64,000 nt of DNA from a virus. The notes under the pieces were generated by a model. It did no database searches. It saw only the letters and a list, made by a program, of their open reading frames with translations, and had not been told where the DNA came from. The DNA lies in the IMG/VR virus record IMGVR_UViG_3300017917_003016, positions 62,001 through 126,000 of that record; one strand, 5' to 3'. Shown here piece by piece: positions 52,732-64,000 of this stretch; within the stretch, counting starts at the first letter, position 1, and every line of letters begins with the position of its first letter. Made by a program: the position numbers and the translations under genes.

Positions 52732-54648
52732 ATGTCAAAGATCATTGGTATTGACCTTGGCACCACAAATAGTTGTGTGGCCGTTCTTGAAAACAACAAA
52801 CCCCGCGTAATTGAAAATTCAGAAGGTGCTCGTACTACACCTAGTATCGTTGCCTACGGCGACGAAATCATCGTAGGTGCTAGCGCCAAACGACAAGCAG
52901 TGACCAATCCTAAGAAGACTATCTACGCTGCCAAACGTCTAATTGGTCGTAAGTTTGACGAAAAGGAAGTGCAAAAGGACATTGACCTTATGCCTTACAA
53001 GATTGTCAAGAATGACAACGGCGATGCATGGGTAGAAATTGATGACAAAAAACTAGCACCTCCGCAAATTTCAGCAGAAGTTTTGCGCAAAATGAAGAAG
53101 ACTGCCGAAGACTATCTGGGTCATGAAGTTACACAGGCTGTGATTACTGTGCCAGCCTACTTCAACGATGCACAACGCCAGGCCACTAAAGACGCTGGCA
53201 AGATTGCTGGTCTAGAAGTTTTGCGTATTATCAACGAGCCTACTGCTGCTGCACTGGCCTATGGCTGTGACAAGACCTCTAAGAAGGACCAGCGGGTTGC
53301 AGTATATGACCTAGGTGGTGGTACTTTTGATATTAGTATCATTGAAATTTCTGAAGTAGACGGCGAAAAGCAATTTGAAGTTCTTGCTACCAACGGTGAT
53401 ACATTCTTAGGCGGTGAAGACTTTGACCAACGTCTTATGGACTATCTCATTGACGAATTTAAGAAGGATTCAGGTATCGATCTTGGTAAGGATCCAATTG
53501 CCCTGCAACGTGTCAAATCTGCGGCTGAAAAGGCTAAGATCGAACTATCGGGTCAACAACAGACGGAAGTCAATGAACCCTACATTGCTATGGACTCTAC
53601 AGGGCCCAAGCATCTTAACGTTAAGATTACCCGTGCCAAATTTGAAAGTTTGGTTGCAGATCTTATCAAGCGTTCGATTGAACCCTGTAAAGCAGCCATC
53701 AAGGACAGTGGCGTAAATATCGCAGACATCGACGAAGTCATCCTCGTAGGCGGACAAACTCGCATGCCCAAAGTTCAAGAAGCAGTTAAGGAACTGTTTG
53801 GCAAGGAACCTCGCAAGGATGTCAACCCAGATGAAGCAGTTGCCGCCGGTGCTGCAATCCAAGGTGCTGTGTTGGGAGGAGATAAAACAGACGTACTGTT
53901 GCTGGACGTTACTCCTCTTTCTCTAGGAATTGAGACCATCGGTGGAGTGTTTACTAAATTAATTAGAAAGAATACAACTATTCCTACCAAGGCTACCCAA
54001 GTGTTCAGCACCGCAGACGACAATCAACCTGCAGTTACAGTCTGTATTGCACAGGGCGAACGTGAATTTATCAAAGATAACAAGATTCTTGGCCAGTTCA
54101 ACCTTGAGGGTATTGAACCTGCTCCACGTGGAATTCCTCAAATTGAAATTACTCTAGACATTGATGCCAATGGTATTCTTAAGGTATCGGCCAAAGACAA
54201 GAAGACCGGCAAAGAAAACAAGATTACCATCAAGGCCAACAGCGGTCTGAGTGAGGAAGAAATTGAACGCATGGTTAAGGATGCTGAAGCCAATGCTGAA
54301 GCAGATAAAAAAGCACGTGCACTAGTGGACACTAAAAACAATGCTGAACAGCAGATCTATAGTGTTAAGAAGACATTAGACGAACTTGGCGACAAGATTA
54401 CGTCTGATGAAAAGACCGCTATTGAAACTGCTATCAAAGCCGTTGAAGAAGCAATTAACGGCGATGATATTTCTGGTATTACTGACAAGGTGGAGGAACT
54501 TACCAAAGTTTCTGGTCCGCTATTTGCTGCATACCAGGCTGATGCTGCTGCCAAACAAGCAGAAGTGCAGCCCGGTGAGCCACAAAATTCAGAGAAGGCA
54601 GCGGATGTAGTTGATGCTGAATTCACTGAAGTAAAGAAAGATGCCTAA
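52732..54648 (+). CDS. dnaK: Chaperone DnaK (Hsp70), 638 aa
   Basis: Full-length Hsp70, the same length as E. coli DnaK. N-terminal [13 protein letters not shown], then [24 protein letters not shown] and the linker [19 protein letters not shown]. The substrate-binding domain and lid follow, ending VVDAEFTEV. Folds proteins in an ATP cycle with DnaJ and GrpE, neither of which is in this window, so host partners are implied. Preceded by an exact late octamer and a ROSE-like hairpin, followed by hsp20 with the same hairpin. Confidence 0.97.
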
Positions 54649-57386: not shown

Positions 57387-58265
57387 ATGAAAAGATCAAT
57401 ACTTGCGATTGCAGTTCTGACTGCACTAACAGGGTGTGCTAGTTCTAGCGCACTTCGAGAAAAGGCCTTTGGTGAACAGTTTGACCCTCCTACTGTAGAG
57501 CGAGAAACATTTTTTACCAAAGCAGAAAATCAATTAGCGCCGCCGGCTAGTGGACCAATCCCTGTAGCAGTCTATAGTTTTACTGACCGCACTGGACAAC
57601 GTAAAAACATTCCTAACATTGCTAGTTTTTCAACAGCAGTGACACAAGGTGGAGAAGCCTATCTTATCAAGGCTCTTCAGGATGTTGGCAACGGTCGTTG
57701 GTTTACTGTATTAGAACGTGTGGGACTGGACAACCTCATTAAAGAACGTCAGATGATACGCCAAATGCGTGAGCAATATCAGGGACGCGATGCTAAACCA
57801 TTACCGCCAATGGTGTTTGCTGGCATGATTGTAGAAGGAGCAATCACAGGATACGACAGTAATAGTTTAACAGGCGGTAGCGGAGCAAGAATTTTAGGTA
57901 TTGGCGCACAGACACAGTACCAAAGCGATACTGTTACAGTTACCCTTAGAACTATCAGTGTTAATACAGGAGAAGTTTTAACCACTGTTACTGTTACAAA
58001 AACTGTGCTGAGTTATATGGACAAGTTTGGTGTACTTAAATTTGTCAGCGCAGGCGAGCGTGCTATAGAAGCAGAGGCCGGCATGAGCATAAACGAAAGC
58101 ATTAACAAGGCCACTAGTCTAGCGGTCAAAGCAGCAGTAGTAGAAACTATTCGAGAAGGTGTCCGTAAAGGATATTGGGCACACAAGGCAGACAATCAAG
58201 AATCTGCTGTCAAGGTCGTACCTTTGCCTGCAGAACCCGCAGTGCAAAGTGAACAATTAAATTAA
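57387..58265 (+). CDS. csgG: Curli secretion pore lipoprotein CsgG, 292 aa
   Basis: Lipoprotein signal ending LTGC with acylated Cys17. The CsgG core contains PIPVAVYSFTDRTGQRK, GRWFTVLERVGLDNLIKERQMIR, MIVEGAITGYDSN, the beta-barrel hairpins around TQYQSDTVTVTLRTISVNTGEV and VTVTKTVLSYM, and the GEAYLIKAL helix. It forms a nonameric outer-membrane channel. Length matches bacterial CsgG (277 aa) plus a short tail. CsgE is not encoded here. Confidence 0.95.
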   Translation: MKRSILAIAVLTALTGCASSSALREKAFGEQFDPPTVERETFFTKAENQLAPPASGPIPVAVYSFTDRTGQRKNIPNIASFSTAVTQGGEAYLIKALQDVGNGRWFTVLERVGLDNLIKERQMIRQMREQYQGRDAKPLPPMVFAGMIVEGAITGYDSNSLTGGSGARILGIGAQTQYQSDTVTVTLRTISVNTGEVLTTVTVTKTVLSYMDKFGVLKFVSAGERAIEAEAGMSINESINKATSLAVKAAVVETIREGVRKGYWAHKADNQESAVKVVPLPAEPAVQSEQLN

Positions 58266-58277
58266 AGGAGCAAGGCA

Positions 58278-59057
58278 ATGAAACTAAAAACTTTAGTTAG
58301 TTTAGTCGCCCTAGTAGTAGCAGGATCGGCATATGCTGCCGGCGAAACCGGTCCAAACCGCGTGTATATTGAACAAATTGGTAACACTAACCTTATAACC
58401 ATTCAGCAGGTTGGTGGCACCAACGACGTTGGCGGTGTTGCAGGCAGTGCTAGTGTTGATGTAACAGGCGTAACAACCTTGACAGTTACAGCACCTAGTA
58501 CCAGTAACTACGCTACTATTAACGGCAGTAGTAACACAGTAACACTGACACAAACTGGTAGCAATAACCAAGCACAGTACAATATCAAAGGTGGTAACAA
58601 TACCTATACCAGCACAATGACTGGTAATAATAATCAAACCAAACTAACTGTGGGTTCTACCAATACCAACGGTTCACAAAATTCAATAACTGAAACTGCA
58701 ACCGGTAGCAGTAATATGTTTATCACTGATGTTGTAGGCAGTAGCAATACTTTGGCAACTACAGTAACTGGTAGTTCAAACCAAATTACTCAGAGTGTTT
58801 TAACTAGCAATGCTGACATTACTAATACTGTTAGTGGTAGCAACAATATTTTTAATATTCAACAACGTGATGCTGCAGGCAGTGCTGGACACAGTCTGAC
58901 CATGGCAACCACAGGTGACTACAATAGCATTACCACTCAGCAGCAAGGTACTAATGACACCACTGTTAATATTTCTACTCAAGGTGATCACAATACCATC
59001 ACAGTTCGTACTAGCAGCACTAGTATATTAAACTCAGCCACAGCCATAGCGAGGTAA
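58278..59057 (+). CDS. Secreted curlin-repeat protein, 259 aa
   Basis: AAAGGAGCAAGGC before the ATG is a strong binding site. Signal peptide MKLKTLVSLVALVVAGSAYA, then NRVYIEQIGNTNLITIQQVG. At least eight Asn/Gln/Thr/Ser-rich repeats of the form N.(V/I).(L/I)TQ.G..N follow, the amyloid curlin pattern (Q-x-G-x-x-N). Longer than CsgA (151 aa) and without a clear N22 CsgG-targeting segment. Likely a substrate of the adjacent CsgG/CsgF pair. Confidence 0.85.
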   Translation: MKLKTLVSLVALVVAGSAYAAGETGPNRVYIEQIGNTNLITIQQVGGTNDVGGVAGSASVDVTGVTTLTVTAPSTSNYATINGSSNTVTLTQTGSNNQAQYNIKGGNNTYTSTMTGNNNQTKLTVGSTNTNGSQNSITETATGSSNMFITDVVGSSNTLATTVTGSSNQITQSVLTSNADITNTVSGSNNIFNIQQRDAAGSAGHSLTMATTGDYNSITTQQQGTNDTTVNISTQGDHNTITVRTSSTSILNSATAIAR

Positions 59058-59060
59058 GCC

Positions 59061-60146
59061 GTGAGGGCTTATCTTGCTGCGGCATTGCTGTTAGCCAGCG
59101 TTGGGGCATGGGCAGGCATAGGTGTAGTCAGTGACACCAAGGGATCTGCCTGTGCAATCGAACGTGCTAAAAAATCATTACCTGGAGACAAAGGTGCAGC
59201 CGTTGAATCAATGGACACCTATGTTACCGGTGGGTGTGTGAGTAACATAACCTTTAATGACGACACTCGGGTTAAAATAACAGAAAACAGTAGACTGCTA
59301 ATCGATGATTTTGTGTTTGATCCCAAAAAGAGCGATGCAGGCAAGTTGGCCTTAAAAGTTTCCATGGGCACGGTTCGGTATGCCAGCGGGCAAATAGCCA
59401 AGAACAATCCACAGCGAGTTGATATTAAAACACCCAGTGCTACTATTGCAGTGCGCGGTACTGATTTTAACATGACTGTTGATGAAACCGGTCAGAGTCT
59501 TGTGATTCTTGTACCTAGTTGTAGAGACAAAGACAAGGTCAAAGAGTATGAATTAGAGGAAAATACCTGTAAAGTAGGAAAGATTGAGGTGACCACCCTG
59601 GCGGGAACTGTGAGTCTGGACAAGGCGTTTGAAGCAACATATGTGGTCAATGCCACAGTACCGCCCACACCTCCGGTAGTGCTAAACACAGTAGAAGGTA
59701 AGATTAGTAATCTACTGATTATTTCTGGGCCGCCTGAAATTCAGCGAATGATGAAGGACAACAGTAAGGCCCGCAAAGAGCAAGAAGATTGGGAAGCCGA
59801 ACAGGCCAGACAGATAGCACAACGTATAAAAGAAGGTCAGCACGAAGAGACTCCTAAAGTAGTTTCCTACACATTTGACAATGGAAAAACCGGATGTAAC
59901 CCTTCTACTAGTATTTGTGTGCGTTGGGAAAAACCCGACGGAGAAACCATACAGGATCGAGGCAAGGGTACTGCCTTTCGCTCAAATGCAGATCACTATG
60001 CAGAAGTCAAAACTCTAGGCTATGACAGCAACACTTCTCTAACCATTACTCACGATGACAGTGTAGCCACAGCACAGATTGGCAGCGGTGATTTTGGAGG
60101 CAACGTAGTTAACATCAAACAAACTACCGGAGTTCTAAGAAAATGA
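59061..60146 (+). CDS. Secreted FecR-domain protein, 361 aa
   Basis: GTG start three bases after the curlin gene. Signal peptide MRAYLAAALLLASVGAWA. FecR-type beta domain at about 50-200: VSNITFNDDTRVKITENSRLLIDDF, KVSMGTVRYASGQI, and PSATIAVRGTDFNM. This arrangement is found in exported proteins rather than in the sigma-regulator FecR with its membrane helix. C-terminal half charged, then beta-rich. It may cap, anchor or chaperone the amyloid; inference from position. Overlaps the next gene by four bases. Confidence 0.85.
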   Translation: MRAYLAAALLLASVGAWAGIGVVSDTKGSACAIERAKKSLPGDKGAAVESMDTYVTGGCVSNITFNDDTRVKITENSRLLIDDFVFDPKKSDAGKLALKVSMGTVRYASGQIAKNNPQRVDIKTPSATIAVRGTDFNMTVDETGQSLVILVPSCRDKDKVKEYELEENTCKVGKIEVTTLAGTVSLDKAFEATYVVNATVPPTPPVVLNTVEGKISNLLIISGPPEIQRMMKDNSKARKEQEDWEAEQARQIAQRIKEGQHEETPKVVSYTFDNGKTGCNPSTSICVRWEKPDGETIQDRGKGTAFRSNADHYAEVKTLGYDSNTSLTITHDDSVATAQIGSGDFGGNVVNIKQTTGVLRK

Positions 60147-61558
60147 AGTTCGTTATCGGTCTGATATTTTTGTTACTGTCTTCACTAGCACAGGCTCAAG
60201 ACCTCAGTTGGGAATCGGGTACACTCAATGGTTGGACTGTGGGTGGCGGTAGTTCAAGTTCTGTTAAATCATCAGGTTGGAGTTCAAACGGCATAGGTGC
60301 AGCAGTCAGTGGCGGTCTTACTAACTATTCTCCAGGCGGCGGCAAAACCTGGACTATTGCTCCCTATGGTACTTACATGGGTAGCCTGCAGCCAGGCAAC
60401 GGTTCGGTAACATTCGATACTGCTGTGTCAAATCTTGGATTAAGCAGCACAGAAAACACTGCAATAAAAAGTTATCTAAGTTATCAGGCCAGCAACGGCG
60501 GCGGTGGGAACCCTACACCAACTAACGCTACATGGATCAAACAAACTGTGGCACTCACAGCAGGGCAGACCTATACCATTGCATGGAACTATCTATCAAC
60601 AGATTACACTCCTTGGAACGACGGTTCTATGATAACGCTGACTCATACTACCAATGCCAATATCACTCCAACCCTAAATAACAAACAGCAAAGATATGGA
60701 CTATTGGGATTTACCAATCCGGGAACTGGTGAATATGCCACAGGTTCATACGGTAGTACCGGCTGGCAAGTGGCCGTGTTTACAGTGCCAGAAACAGGCA
60801 ACTATGTCTTAGGTTTTGCATCATTTAATCTAGGCGACACTGCACTAAGTCCTATTTTGTTTGTTGATCAATTGCAGGGTGTTACTACACTAAATGGTCA
60901 AAGTTTTGGTCCTGTTGCACCTAATCCTGGCAGCACAGCACCAACTGCACCTTCCGGTGGTGGCAGTTCTTTGTGCTGTGGCGGAAGTTCAGCAAGTTTT
61001 ACCATGGATGCAGACAAAGCAGCCAGTGTCAACGCATTTAAAAATCGTACCACAGCAGACAGTAAGGTCTACGTAGATCAAATTGGCAATGGCAATACTA
61101 TCACTGTTCAGCAAACGGGCACTAAAAATAACTATGCAGAATACAACGGCAATGGTAGTTCTAATACGGTAAACATAACTCAAAGCGGAACTGCAGCCAC
61201 AGAAGCCAACTATACAAGACTAGATATTATTGGCAACAGCAACACTGTCAATCTAACACAGACCAGCACTGGTGGGACTAAAAGTGTATTTGCCAGTATA
61301 AACAATAACAATAATTCAGTAACCATATTACAAAAAGACGCCGGCAGTCATCACCTAGATCTTACCTTAAGCGGTGGTGGCAAAACTGTAGACATCACAC
61401 AACAAGGATCTGCAGCACACATGGCAGACATTACCCTCACAGGCGCAGGTTCACGCAGCCTTACCTTGACTCAGCAGGGCAGTACTCAGCAATTCTACAG
61501 TATTAACAGCAGTTGTGCTTCAAGTTGTCAGGCCATAACCGTCACACAAGGACAATAA
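60143..61558 (+). CDS. Secreted jellyroll plus curlin-repeat protein, 471 aa
   Basis: Signal peptide MKFVIGLIFLLLSSLAQA. Residues 20-255 form a beta-sandwich-like domain (LSWESGTLNGWTVGGG, then VFTVPETGNYVLGFASFNLGD) resembling carbohydrate-binding modules. A Cys pair (SLCCGG) and linker follow. Residues 300-471 carry curlin repeats (SKVYVDQIGNGNTITVQQTG, then SNTVNITQSG, SNTVNLTQTS, KTVDITQQG). The opening repeat is nearly the same as in the 259-aa curlin, so both may nucleate on one another. A candidate surface-binding curli minor subunit. Confidence 0.85.
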   Translation: MKFVIGLIFLLLSSLAQAQDLSWESGTLNGWTVGGGSSSSVKSSGWSSNGIGAAVSGGLTNYSPGGGKTWTIAPYGTYMGSLQPGNGSVTFDTAVSNLGLSSTENTAIKSYLSYQASNGGGGNPTPTNATWIKQTVALTAGQTYTIAWNYLSTDYTPWNDGSMITLTHTTNANITPTLNNKQQRYGLLGFTNPGTGEYATGSYGSTGWQVAVFTVPETGNYVLGFASFNLGDTALSPILFVDQLQGVTTLNGQSFGPVAPNPGSTAPTAPSGGGSSLCCGGSSASFTMDADKAASVNAFKNRTTADSKVYVDQIGNGNTITVQQTGTKNNYAEYNGNGSSNTVNITQSGTAATEANYTRLDIIGNSNTVNLTQTSTGGTKSVFASINNNNNSVTILQKDAGSHHLDLTLSGGGKTVDITQQGSAAHMADITLTGAGSRSLTLTQQGSTQQFYSINSSCASSCQAITVTQGQ

Positions 61559-61955: not shown

Positions 61956-62852
61956 ATGACTCGATATTCTTCCTATCATGAATTTGATCAAGATACAAAA
62001 AACTTACCAAGAATAAGTTATCTTGAGACCATGCTGACCTATGCTTGCACACTGAGTTGTCGCAGTTGTACAAACTACAGCGACTACGGTATGAAAGGTG
62101 GGCATGTCAAATGGTCTACAGCGAAACCGTGGTTAGATGCATGGTTTGATCGTATACGAGTGGACTGCTTTGGTTTTATTGGTGGCGAACCTCTAATGAA
62201 TCCAGAATTAGAAACATGGATTAGAGAATTTCGTAAAAACTATCCATTTACTACAATTATGATTGTAACCAATGCTCAACTGTTTACAAAAAATCTTTGG
62301 ATACTAGATGTTATGGAAGAACTAGGTATGATTTACCTTAAGTTCACTAATCACATTCCCAAAGCCAAATATTTTACCAAAGCGGTGGATACAGTATTAT
62401 CTAGATTTCCGTGGGAATATAAACCCGAGTGGGAAAGGTATTTTTATCAAGAAAAAATTCTAGACTTTCTTGTTAGTGAATCACCAACTTTTATGAAAAC
62501 CTATCGGGGTGAGTATGGTTCAATGAAACCCTACAACAACGATCCACAACAGGCATTTAAGATTTGTAATCAACAAATTTGTCCTCTTCTTTATAACGGT
62601 CGCCTCTACAAGTGTAGCAGCCTAGGTATGCTATCGAGAGTTTTACAAGACCACGGCCAAGTTGACGATCCTGACTGGCAACCGTTTGTGCAAAATCAAG
62701 GATTGGATTTAAGTTGTTCTGATGAAGAATTGCGAGCATGGGCTGATAATTTTGGTAAGCCTATTAAAGAATGTAGGATGTGCCCAACAGAGAAAGATAA
62801 ACCTTTTCATTCTCACTATGACACAGTTGTTAATAGAATTAACATTTTTTAA
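61956..62852 (+). CDS. Radical SAM protein with SPASM/twitch-like Cys tail, 298 aa
   Basis: LTYACTLSCRSCTNYSDYG carries Cys-x3-Cys-x2-Cys for the [4Fe-4S] SAM cluster. FGFIGGEPLMNPEL holds the GGEP motif. C-terminal CNQQICPLLYNGRLYKCSS and CRMCP supply four or five cysteines for an auxiliary cluster, as in peptide- or sugar-modifying radical SAM enzymes. It lies 87 bases after the PqqA-like gene. It is not close enough in pattern to call PqqE, but peptide modification is a reasonable guess. Confidence 0.88.
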   Translation: MTRYSSYHEFDQDTKNLPRISYLETMLTYACTLSCRSCTNYSDYGMKGGHVKWSTAKPWLDAWFDRIRVDCFGFIGGEPLMNPELETWIREFRKNYPFTTIMIVTNAQLFTKNLWILDVMEELGMIYLKFTNHIPKAKYFTKAVDTVLSRFPWEYKPEWERYFYQEKILDFLVSESPTFMKTYRGEYGSMKPYNNDPQQAFKICNQQICPLLYNGRLYKCSSLGMLSRVLQDHGQVDDPDWQPFVQNQGLDLSCSDEELRAWADNFGKPIKECRMCPTEKDKPFHSHYDTVVNRINIF

Positions 62853-62881
62853 TAGAAATCACATGTGATTTTTTGGACAAG

Positions 62882-62889
62882 TATAAATA
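62882..62889 (+). promoter_or_regulatory. T4-type late promoter octamer, leaderless layout
   Basis: Exact TATAAATA, six bases before an ATG at 62896. Confidence 0.7.
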
Positions 62890-62895
62890 AAATGT

Positions 62896-63069
62896 ATGGT
62901 TGATACAAGTCAACGTAAGTATTACAATAGGCGTTATACAAAGATGAACACAAATCTTAACCTAAGACCAACACAGCCCAAAACACTAACCAGTGTTGTA
63001 GCATCCTATTGGTCACAGTTTGAGAGTCTAAATTGCGATCGCAGCATTGGCGGGGGGGTTCTAGGTTAA
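62896..63069 (+). CDS. Small protein, 57 aa
   Basis: ATG at 62896, TAA at 63067-63069. Begins MVDTSQRKYYNRRYTK, basic, and ends CDRSIGGGVLG; a single Cys, Trp38-Tyr39 reversed as YW, and a run of seven G's in the gene near the end. The exact late octamer six bases upstream supports it as a leaderless gene. Placed right behind the radical SAM gene it could be a substrate, but nothing in the sequence proves that. Confidence 0.5.
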   Translation: MVDTSQRKYYNRRYTKMNTNLNLRPTQPKTLTSVVASYWSQFESLNCDRSIGGGVLG

Positions 63070-63100
63070 CGGTATAGCAGCACATGCACACTAACTTAGG

Positions 63101-63128
63101 ACCCTGGACAGAAAATCCAGGGTTTTTT
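63101..63128 (+). terminator. Intrinsic terminator
   Basis: ACCCTGGA / TCCAGGGT stem with CAGAAAA loop and six T's, separating the preceding unit from the giant RNA promoter. Confidence 0.9.
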
Positions 63129-63151
63129 GTTTTGTGCAGTAGAAAAAGAGG

Positions 63152-63180
63152 TTGACACTGGCGCAGATTAGTACTATACT
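63152..63180 (+). promoter_or_regulatory. sigma70 promoter of the giant RNA
   Basis: TTGACA (63152-63157), 17-nt spacer, TATACT (63175-63180). Predicted start about 63187. No open reading frame of note follows on the plus strand; the product is RNA. Confidence 0.9.
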
Positions 63181-63186
63181 GTGCAA

Positions 63187-63957
63187 CATGTTAACTAAAC
63201 ATGCGGTTGTAAGGTGTGGTGGGTAACGAGGACCCAGACAGCACTCTAAACATTGTCAAACGGGCGGAGGCTGGGAGTCACAACAAACAGTCAGGGTACA
63301 GACGGTGTACCCACTATACATAAGCACACTGAAGGGCATTACCGCGTGTCTAACACTGCCCGATGAGTTAGACCAGTGTGCTTATGTATAGTGAAATCAG
63401 TTTTGGGGAGGGCACCTCCGTGACGGGAGGTTTTGATCGCCAGTGCAGTTGGGTCCCGGGTTAGTGGACAGAAAGACTGCCCTGCGTCACCAGAGTGCAC
63501 ATCAAGCGCCTCTCCAACCCTTTTATGAGGCTGCAGCCTCATATACGGAAGATGAGTAAACTCGAGTAAAACTCATCAAGGCACAAACAGCGGAGGCGTA
63601 TCGTCCCTCCCATGCTGAACCTGACAGCCTGGAAAGACAGGCACTATAGATAAGTGCTGTCAAGGGTATCGTTACGGGACGCCGTAACTATGCGGGCCTA
63701 ACTGGCGTGGAACAGGTCCTGATATAACCGCTATACGCTGTGGGATGGAAGCACCAGACCCCTAAATTGGCAAGACAGCACTTTTCTATAGTTTTCAAAA
63801 ACTATAAATCTGCACGGTAGCGAAAGGAGTCTAGTCAACTCGCCCACCTGCAAGGGTAGTACATATGCCATCCCTGGCCCTGCTGACCCAGGATAACCCA
63901 GGTGACACCAGAGCCGCTTACATGAGGCTCACGCAGGGTGCAGATCTATAGTTTTTT
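63187..63957 (+). ncRNA. Giant structured RNA, GOLLD-like candidate, about 770 nt
   Basis: No credible gene lies in this stretch, yet it is full of long perfect stems. They include a hairpin 63294-63312, a 19-20 bp stem 63312-63331/63374-63393 capped by an interleaved pseudoknot, and a two-hairpin domain closed by CGCCTC/GAGGCG (63507-63512/63593-63598). A three-way junction lies at 63623-63661 and GTTACGG hairpins at 63671-63688. Long-range helices run 63644-63661/63774-63791 and 63798-63815/63938-63955, each with one mismatch. Size, phage setting, own promoter and direct adjacency to a tRNA match GOLLD; ROOL is the main alternative. Boundaries are approximate. Confidence 0.8.
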
Positions 63958-64000
63958 GGAAGTGCGGCTCAGATGGCGGATGGGCACCGGACTGTAAATT
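63958..64000 (+). tRNA. tRNA-Tyr (GTA), truncated by window end
   Basis: Acceptor 5' strand GGAAGTG (63958-63964), D stem GCTC/GGGC with a GG-containing loop, and anticodon stem CCGGA followed by loop CTGTAAA (anticodon GTA at 63994-63996). The rest lies beyond the window. It begins two bases or fewer after the last helix of the giant RNA and its T run, so processing of a joint transcript is likely. Confidence 0.82.

Follow-up and report, generated by a model that had tools for sequence, protein, structure and literature searches.

A recurrent 21-nt hairpin, with UGAC, one nucleotide, a five-base-pair stem and a GAAAGA loop, suggests an uncatalogued signal for phage RNA handling. Its stem covaries strongly and tolerates G-U pairs, and the copy followed here lies within a large structured phage RNA adjoining tRNAs that is probably present at 63187-63957. 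Our preferred reading, to which we give a probability of roughly 0.4, is that the hairpin serves as punctuation in phage polycistronic transcripts, with structured RNAs being recognised or processed at their 5' edge.

A gene-free interval leads the tRNA region

The window, a stretch of 64,000 nt, spans 62001-126000 of a virus contig of 201,732 bp, and positions below refer to the window unless stated otherwise. Genes for DnaK, GroEL, a ribonucleotide reductase and a permuted tmRNA are present on the contig, as in large phages; the T4-like lytic phage proposed by the first-pass annotation was not established. The DnaK-like gene lies at 52732-54648, GroEL at L006 5417-7039, and the circularly permuted tmRNA at L006 2844-3399 (contig about 152.8-153.4 kb; RF04321, 119 bits). 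Separately, the interval 57387-61558 holds a curli-like set in a phage, consisting of a CsgG homologue (PF03783, E 3e-50), a FecR-domain protein and a curlin-repeat protein.

The upstream neighbour of the RNA locus is a radical SAM gene ending at 62852, which is followed by a terminator-like hairpin and a promoter (Table 1). The first-pass annotation had described about 770 nt without a gene after a consensus sigma70 promoter, ending at a tRNA-Tyr, and this was confirmed, since no ORF longer than 67 aa overlaps 63187-63957, the promoter matches 11 of 12 consensus positions, and the RNA stops one base short of tRNA-Tyr. The promoter alone weighs little, because 1.6 promoter-like sites are expected per shuffled region. 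ARAGORN run on the window alone misses tRNA-Tyr, because the window end cuts it; in the whole contig it is the first of 27 tRNAs within the next 9 kb, a region that the 770-nt RNA leads. The ~150 nt between tRNA-Tyr and tRNA-Glu (L004 1249-1400; contig 126048-126199) is also gene-free and possibly structured.

Table 1. Features at the RNA locus, in window coordinates
Feature	Position	Strand	Basis
Intrinsic-terminator-like hairpin, closing the upstream transcription unit	63098..63126	+	Sequence scan
Sigma70-type promoter, TTGACA-17-TATACT	63152..63180	+	11/12 matches, consensus only
Predicted structured non-coding RNA, ~770 nt	63187..63957	+	No convincing gene; fold excess over shuffles
Long hairpin, perfect 20-bp stem CACTATACATAAGCACACTG/CAGTGTGCTTATGTATAGTG, strands 63312-63331/63374-63393	63312..63393	+	Helix list; z -6.8 (63298-63400)
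Recurrent conserved hairpin, UGAC-A-GCCUG-GAAAGA-CAGGC, 21 nt	63622..63642	+	blastn, pattern and covariance searches
Predicted domain directly after the conserved hairpin, closed by ACTATAGA/TCTATAGT plus AAGTGCTGTC/GACAGCACTT	63643..63792	+	Helix list; z -4.4 (63620-63800)
Predicted subdomain on the 3' side, closed by ATCTGCAC/GTGCAGAT and reaching almost to the tRNA	63808..63945	+	Helix list; z -3.8 (63796-63957)
tRNA-Tyr (GUA), opening the tRNA region	63958..64000, cut by window end (contig 125958-126045)	+	tRNA search of contig (L004 1159-1246)

The 770-nt RNA is predicted to fold strongly

The minimum free energy of 63187-63957 was -295.5 kcal/mol, against -252.0 +/- 9.6 for 20 shuffles (z -4.54). 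The excess came from the 20-bp hairpin and the 3' half: besides the values in Table 1, z was -2.7 for 63400-63620 and -4.8 for 63643-63957, and the first ~120 nt (63181-63310) showed no excess (z -0.2). The first-pass annotation had listed at least ten strong helices, many of them long-range. Long-range helices are indeed predicted, for example 63652-63661/63774-63783, but because many of the listed helices are mutually exclusive, the list is a fold prediction and not one proven structure. An apparent internal repeat, CACTATA(C/G)ATAAG at 63312 and 63642, was too insignificant for use.

We searched for full-length homologues of the 770-nt RNA by several routes. When 50,697 phage records were searched by blastn, the sole match was the hairpin, as 27 identical bases within 63619-63648 that occur in a crAss-like phage and a Pseudanabaena phage, and an extended pattern search gave no full-length homologue. 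The search via the radical SAM neighbour yielded one contig, which ends just past that gene, and a DNA search of 20 records, mostly DnaB relatives, returned hairpin matches alone, in two large phages that had been selected by the hairpin. Since no full-length homologue was found by these searches, the covariation that had been anticipated across the helices is limited to the 21-nt hairpin, in which it is strong.

The hairpin is widespread and probably pairs as RNA

At least 119 viral contigs contain the exact core 20-mer and at least 120 contain a version with another stem; both counts are lower bounds that include related phages. A version otherwise identical, whose 3' strand is unable to form the stem, matched no viral contig. 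Bacterial and archaeal genomes from many phyla, 257 Gb in all, contain only 19 exact matches to the 21-mer, in hosts ranging from Bacteroidota to Cyanobacteria, Planctomycetes and Gammaproteobacteria. Further, non-identical copies near the anchor copies consist of UGAC, one base, a stem of 4-6 bp and GAAAGA, and often number several per locus. The consensus reads UGAC-R-NNNN-GGAAAGAC-NNNN-A, and the general form UGAC-R-(5 bp)-GAA(N)AGA-(5 bp)-A. The window copy fits this plan of UGAC, one nucleotide, a covarying 5-bp stem and a GAA(N)AGA loop, although its covariance-model score arises by construction, because this copy is included in the model. No Rfam family matches the UGAC-GAAAGA hairpin, and we found no published description of it in the open-access literature.

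Among 25 copies with different stems, which were picked partly for pairing, four of the five pairs change on both sides, and the double-changed cells number 43, against 11.6 +/- 2.8 in shuffles (0/500). Further pattern matches, taken without selection and no more than 3 kb from an anchor copy, form four or five of the five pairs in 28 of 37 cases; of 16 distant pattern matches, 12 form at most two pairs and the other four are fully paired. In copies with a single departure from Watson-Crick pairing among the four variable pairs, that pair is G-U more often than a mismatch (8 copies versus 3), which points to a hairpin that acts as RNA rather than DNA. The same count argues against a DNA-level element, namely a recombination or homing site that would fold as single-stranded DNA and mark the borders of tRNA cassettes, as does the strict location on the tRNA strand. 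Such a site would fit the finding of the same upstream sequence with differing downstream genes across contigs, and some copies do lie close to homing endonuclease genes, but on balance we regard it as very improbable indeed.

Copies border tRNAs, tmRNA pieces and mRNAs

After removal of near-duplicates, 179 contexts remained, 98 of the first version and 81 of the second. Within 1 kb, a tRNA on the hairpin strand is present in 28 and 33 of these, respectively (61/179), and one on the opposite strand in none, so that a recognisable tRNA is nearby in only about one third of the contexts. Among contexts with a downstream tRNA, the tRNA start lies 3-8 nt past the hairpin in 9 of 17 for the first version and 21 of 23 for the second (30/40). 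In the window, tRNA-Tyr is 315 nt away, not 3-8, and a predicted stem starts directly 3' of the hairpin. A closed RNA domain with stems of at least 9 bp follows the hairpin in 63 of the 179 contexts, a weak excess over the 48 of 179 in shuffles.

Arrays hold several copies, ahead of tRNAs, pseudo-tRNAs and a hammerhead-like motif, and some precede tRNA-like folds that lack a normal anticodon arm. At locus L325, a copy sits inside a permuted tmRNA, just 5' of the tmRNA 5' piece. Other copies sit before the starts of unrelated ORFs; since the hairpin also precedes mRNAs, it is not tRNA-specific. Counting its overlaps with ORFs gave no information, as its sequence contains few stop codons. Judged from these sequence contexts, the hairpin looks like punctuation, because its flank and loop are fixed and its stem is free, and because it is repeated per transcript, is always in the sense orientation and borders tRNAs, tmRNA pieces, ribozyme-like motifs and mRNAs on their 5' side.

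Two other elements were observed at these loci. A hammerhead-like ribozyme with all core bases lies directly 3' of a UGAC hairpin at L022 499-546, with a sub-threshold Rfam score (21.8 bits, E 0.019). A leucine-type pseudo-tRNA (AGTCAGGTGGCGGAATTGGTAGACGC ... GGTTCGAATCCTGTCCTGACT), whose anticodon arm is replaced, recurs in unrelated phage contigs at many loci, for example L265, L280, L301, L309 and L316.

The contexts also bear on an antitermination or pausing element, in which the hairpin would modify RNA polymerase and thereby spare long untranslated tRNA/ncRNA operons from Rho. Lambda boxB and HK022 put RNA are RNA elements that modify RNA polymerase, and a small hairpin with a 5-bp stem in the nascent phage RNA of long untranslated units would suit this role, as would the back-to-back hairpins in some loci (L002, L063 and L065) and the position of the lambdoid related RNA modules in the late leader, between Q and holin. 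However, there are many copies per operon, each bordering an RNA gene, when one or two by the promoter would do, and the 15.7 kb of the put phage HK022 that we scanned contained no hairpin with intact UGAC and loop. HK022 gave one loose hairpin match, near its right end and not near pL or pR, and identity with HK022 put was rejected, the hairpin being absent from the put region. We consider antitermination unlikely; processing is favoured over it by the large number of copies that an array holds and by the copy lying inside a permuted tmRNA, an RNA from which an intervening segment is removed.

The 770-nt RNA shows no match to GOLLD, ROOL or Y RNA models

The first-pass annotation had read the region as a GOLLD-class RNA or a relative, to be checked with the GOLLD and ROOL covariance models around 63150-64000. 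This reading was not borne out. The window matched no Rfam family at the gathering threshold, and a permissive search of 62800-64000 gave chance matches around the terminator only, with neither GOLLD nor ROOL matching at E<=10. When the entire contig of 201,732 bp was searched, RF02032 (GOLLD) gave no match at E<=10, the positive controls for this model being weak matches in control genomes below the cut-off. RF03087 (ROOL) likewise gave none at E<=10; this negative is the weaker one, because no control genome gave a match either. On these searches both identities were rejected for the 770-nt RNA, and neither model matched at E<=0.001 in 50 records with the hairpin or related modules. In Staphylococcus phage K, the lncRNAs that the literature likens to GOLLD/ROOL gave only tRNA Rfam matches and no convincing hairpin, and were set aside.

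GOLLD and ROOL are self-assembling RNA particles, and the 770-nt RNA might be a new giant ornate RNA that works like them, as a device made of RNA alone or of RNA and protein, in which the hairpin would be a contact site. Its size, phage origin, tRNA neighbours and strong predicted fold are in line with this, as is a related hairpin in the ~800-nt RNA of phage ICP1. The hairpin is, however, present in many contexts without a giant RNA, for example directly 5' of ORFs or single tRNAs; moreover, neither a GOLLD/ROOL sequence or structure match nor the full-length homologue that would show conservation was found. A device of this type is decidedly unlikely in our estimate.

A Y RNA identity was also rejected, as only weak cross-matches resembling tRNA arms were obtained. 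YrlA gave no match over the cut-off in the 50 records, and 10 of 14 control genomes matched at the same threshold; the contig gave one YrlA match of 19.5 bits, below the cut-off, over the tRNA region. No Ro60 (TROVE) or DUF2828 partner gene was found in the contig, which may be incomplete. The relative G007, whose DnaB is 75% identical, has a weak YrlA match near a DUF2828 gene and also a hairpin copy. At L231 660-1770 of G007, tRNAs and about four AGGAU...UUCAGCAA...AUCCUGUU repeats lie upstream of this DUF2828/vWA (Ro60-like) gene, and the UGAC hairpin copy lies within this interval, near the tRNAs. The repeats are possibly phage Y RNAs; the G007 ncRNA has no sequence similarity to the 770-nt RNA.

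Related modules occur in model phages, and a divergent hairpin match in ICP1

Related modules were found in E. coli prophages, mEp390, ep3, Sasha, P1, HK629, CUS-3 and Klebsiella phage Magnus. Their plan, as read by eye and unscored, places a tRNA-like fold downstream of a long hairpin (ACAACAGGTAAGAGCATTG ... CAGTGCTCTTTCCGTTGT); one such fold is a pseudogenic tRNA-Gly in the NCBI annotation. In several model phages, the conserved hairpin or a loop variant lies 5' of the module. Tandem tRNA-like modules occur in P1, lambdoid phages, an E. coli prophage and Magnus (L131 1500-2200, L132 1990-2250, L133 1500-1790, L127 3880-4540 and L134 1490-2800), and the acceptor-like strand GUUGUGG has potential pairing partners on both sides, one upstream and one downstream, which might form a switch.

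These modules bring to mind a decoy, in which tRNA-like or structured arrays would absorb host RNases, such as anticodon nucleases or other defence enzymes, and the hairpin would mark the module borders. The degenerate tRNA-like folds after the hairpin in many loci, the tandem modules of enterobacterial phages including P1, and the fast sequence change all accord with it, but the 770-nt RNA has no recognisable tRNA-like fold, and we see the decoy as a slim prospect.

In Vibrio phage ICP1, the most abundant transcript is an ~800-nt RNA from a gene-free interval (PMC7567579). The hairpin covariance model gave one weak match in this ncRNA (11.2 bits, E 0.019 in 1.4 kb), to the near-variant UGAC-U-GCCGU-GAAUAGU-GCGGC-A, at about 80963-80992 on the minus strand of NC_015157. 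When loops of 6-8 nt were allowed, 4.9 Mb of sequence away from the anchors contained only three long-loop matches, in ICP1, an E. coli prophage and P1. The ICP1 match is suggestive and not independent, because the loop pattern was widened after the ICP1 candidate had been seen.

Discussion

According to the punctuation reading, long phage transcripts would carry tRNAs, tRNA-like folds, tmRNA and ribozyme-like pieces, punctuated by the hairpin. The hairpin would be read as RNA by a conserved factor of the host or the phage, in the simplest case an endonuclease or an RNA-binding protein, and the downstream RNA would then be released or protected with a defined 5' edge. The window RNA would be split in this way into an upstream part of ~430 nt and a part of ~310 nt abutting tRNA-Tyr; the latter opens with one strand of a predicted stem and extends as far as the tRNA. 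Counting against the punctuation reading are the copies ahead of mRNAs, the presence of a recognisable tRNA in no more than about one third of the contexts, the 315-nt distance to tRNA-Tyr in the window and the weak excess of closed domains. The variety of hosts would point to a core enzyme of bacteria, a phage protein of wide distribution or the RNA itself as the reader. A wider proposal is that the hairpin is an unrecognised, very widespread phage punctuation signal, with a reader that is either the RNA itself or a factor shared among bacterial phyla, and that it defines a large class of structured-RNA arrays including the 770-nt RNA and the top transcript of ICP1; we hold this to be doubtful, though worth serious consideration.

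We know of no function so far for the large tRNA-adjacent phage RNAs. The hairpin, being common to many such loci, to model phages (P1, E. coli prophages and mEp390) and to the ICP1 ncRNA, would offer an experimental handle on them, for deletion, compensatory mutation or use as a bait for the reader factor.

Among known systems, YrlA (RF02553) is a tRNA-mimicking RNA, to which the 770-nt RNA has no match. The boxB and put elements resemble the UGAC hairpin as short phage RNA hairpins with a conserved loop in nascent transcripts, but have another loop and no UGAC flank, and no N protein is known for the present phage. Like ROOL, the 770-nt RNA is phage-encoded, several hundred nucleotides long and close to tRNA islands, though it does not match RF03087. 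GOLLD is phage-encoded, about 800 nt long and close to tRNA clusters, with an elaborate predicted fold (PMC12286853); the 770-nt RNA shares the phage location, the nearby tRNAs and a similar length (~770 versus about 800 nt), whereas it lacks the universally conserved 3' region of GOLLD, as judged by the covariance-model negative. The ICP1 ncRNA differs in that ICP1 has no tRNAs, its hairpin loop is not the same and no other sequence similarity was noted, yet it resembles the 770-nt RNA in its similar length, its gene-free interval, the absence of a GOLLD/ROOL match and the same hairpin pattern.
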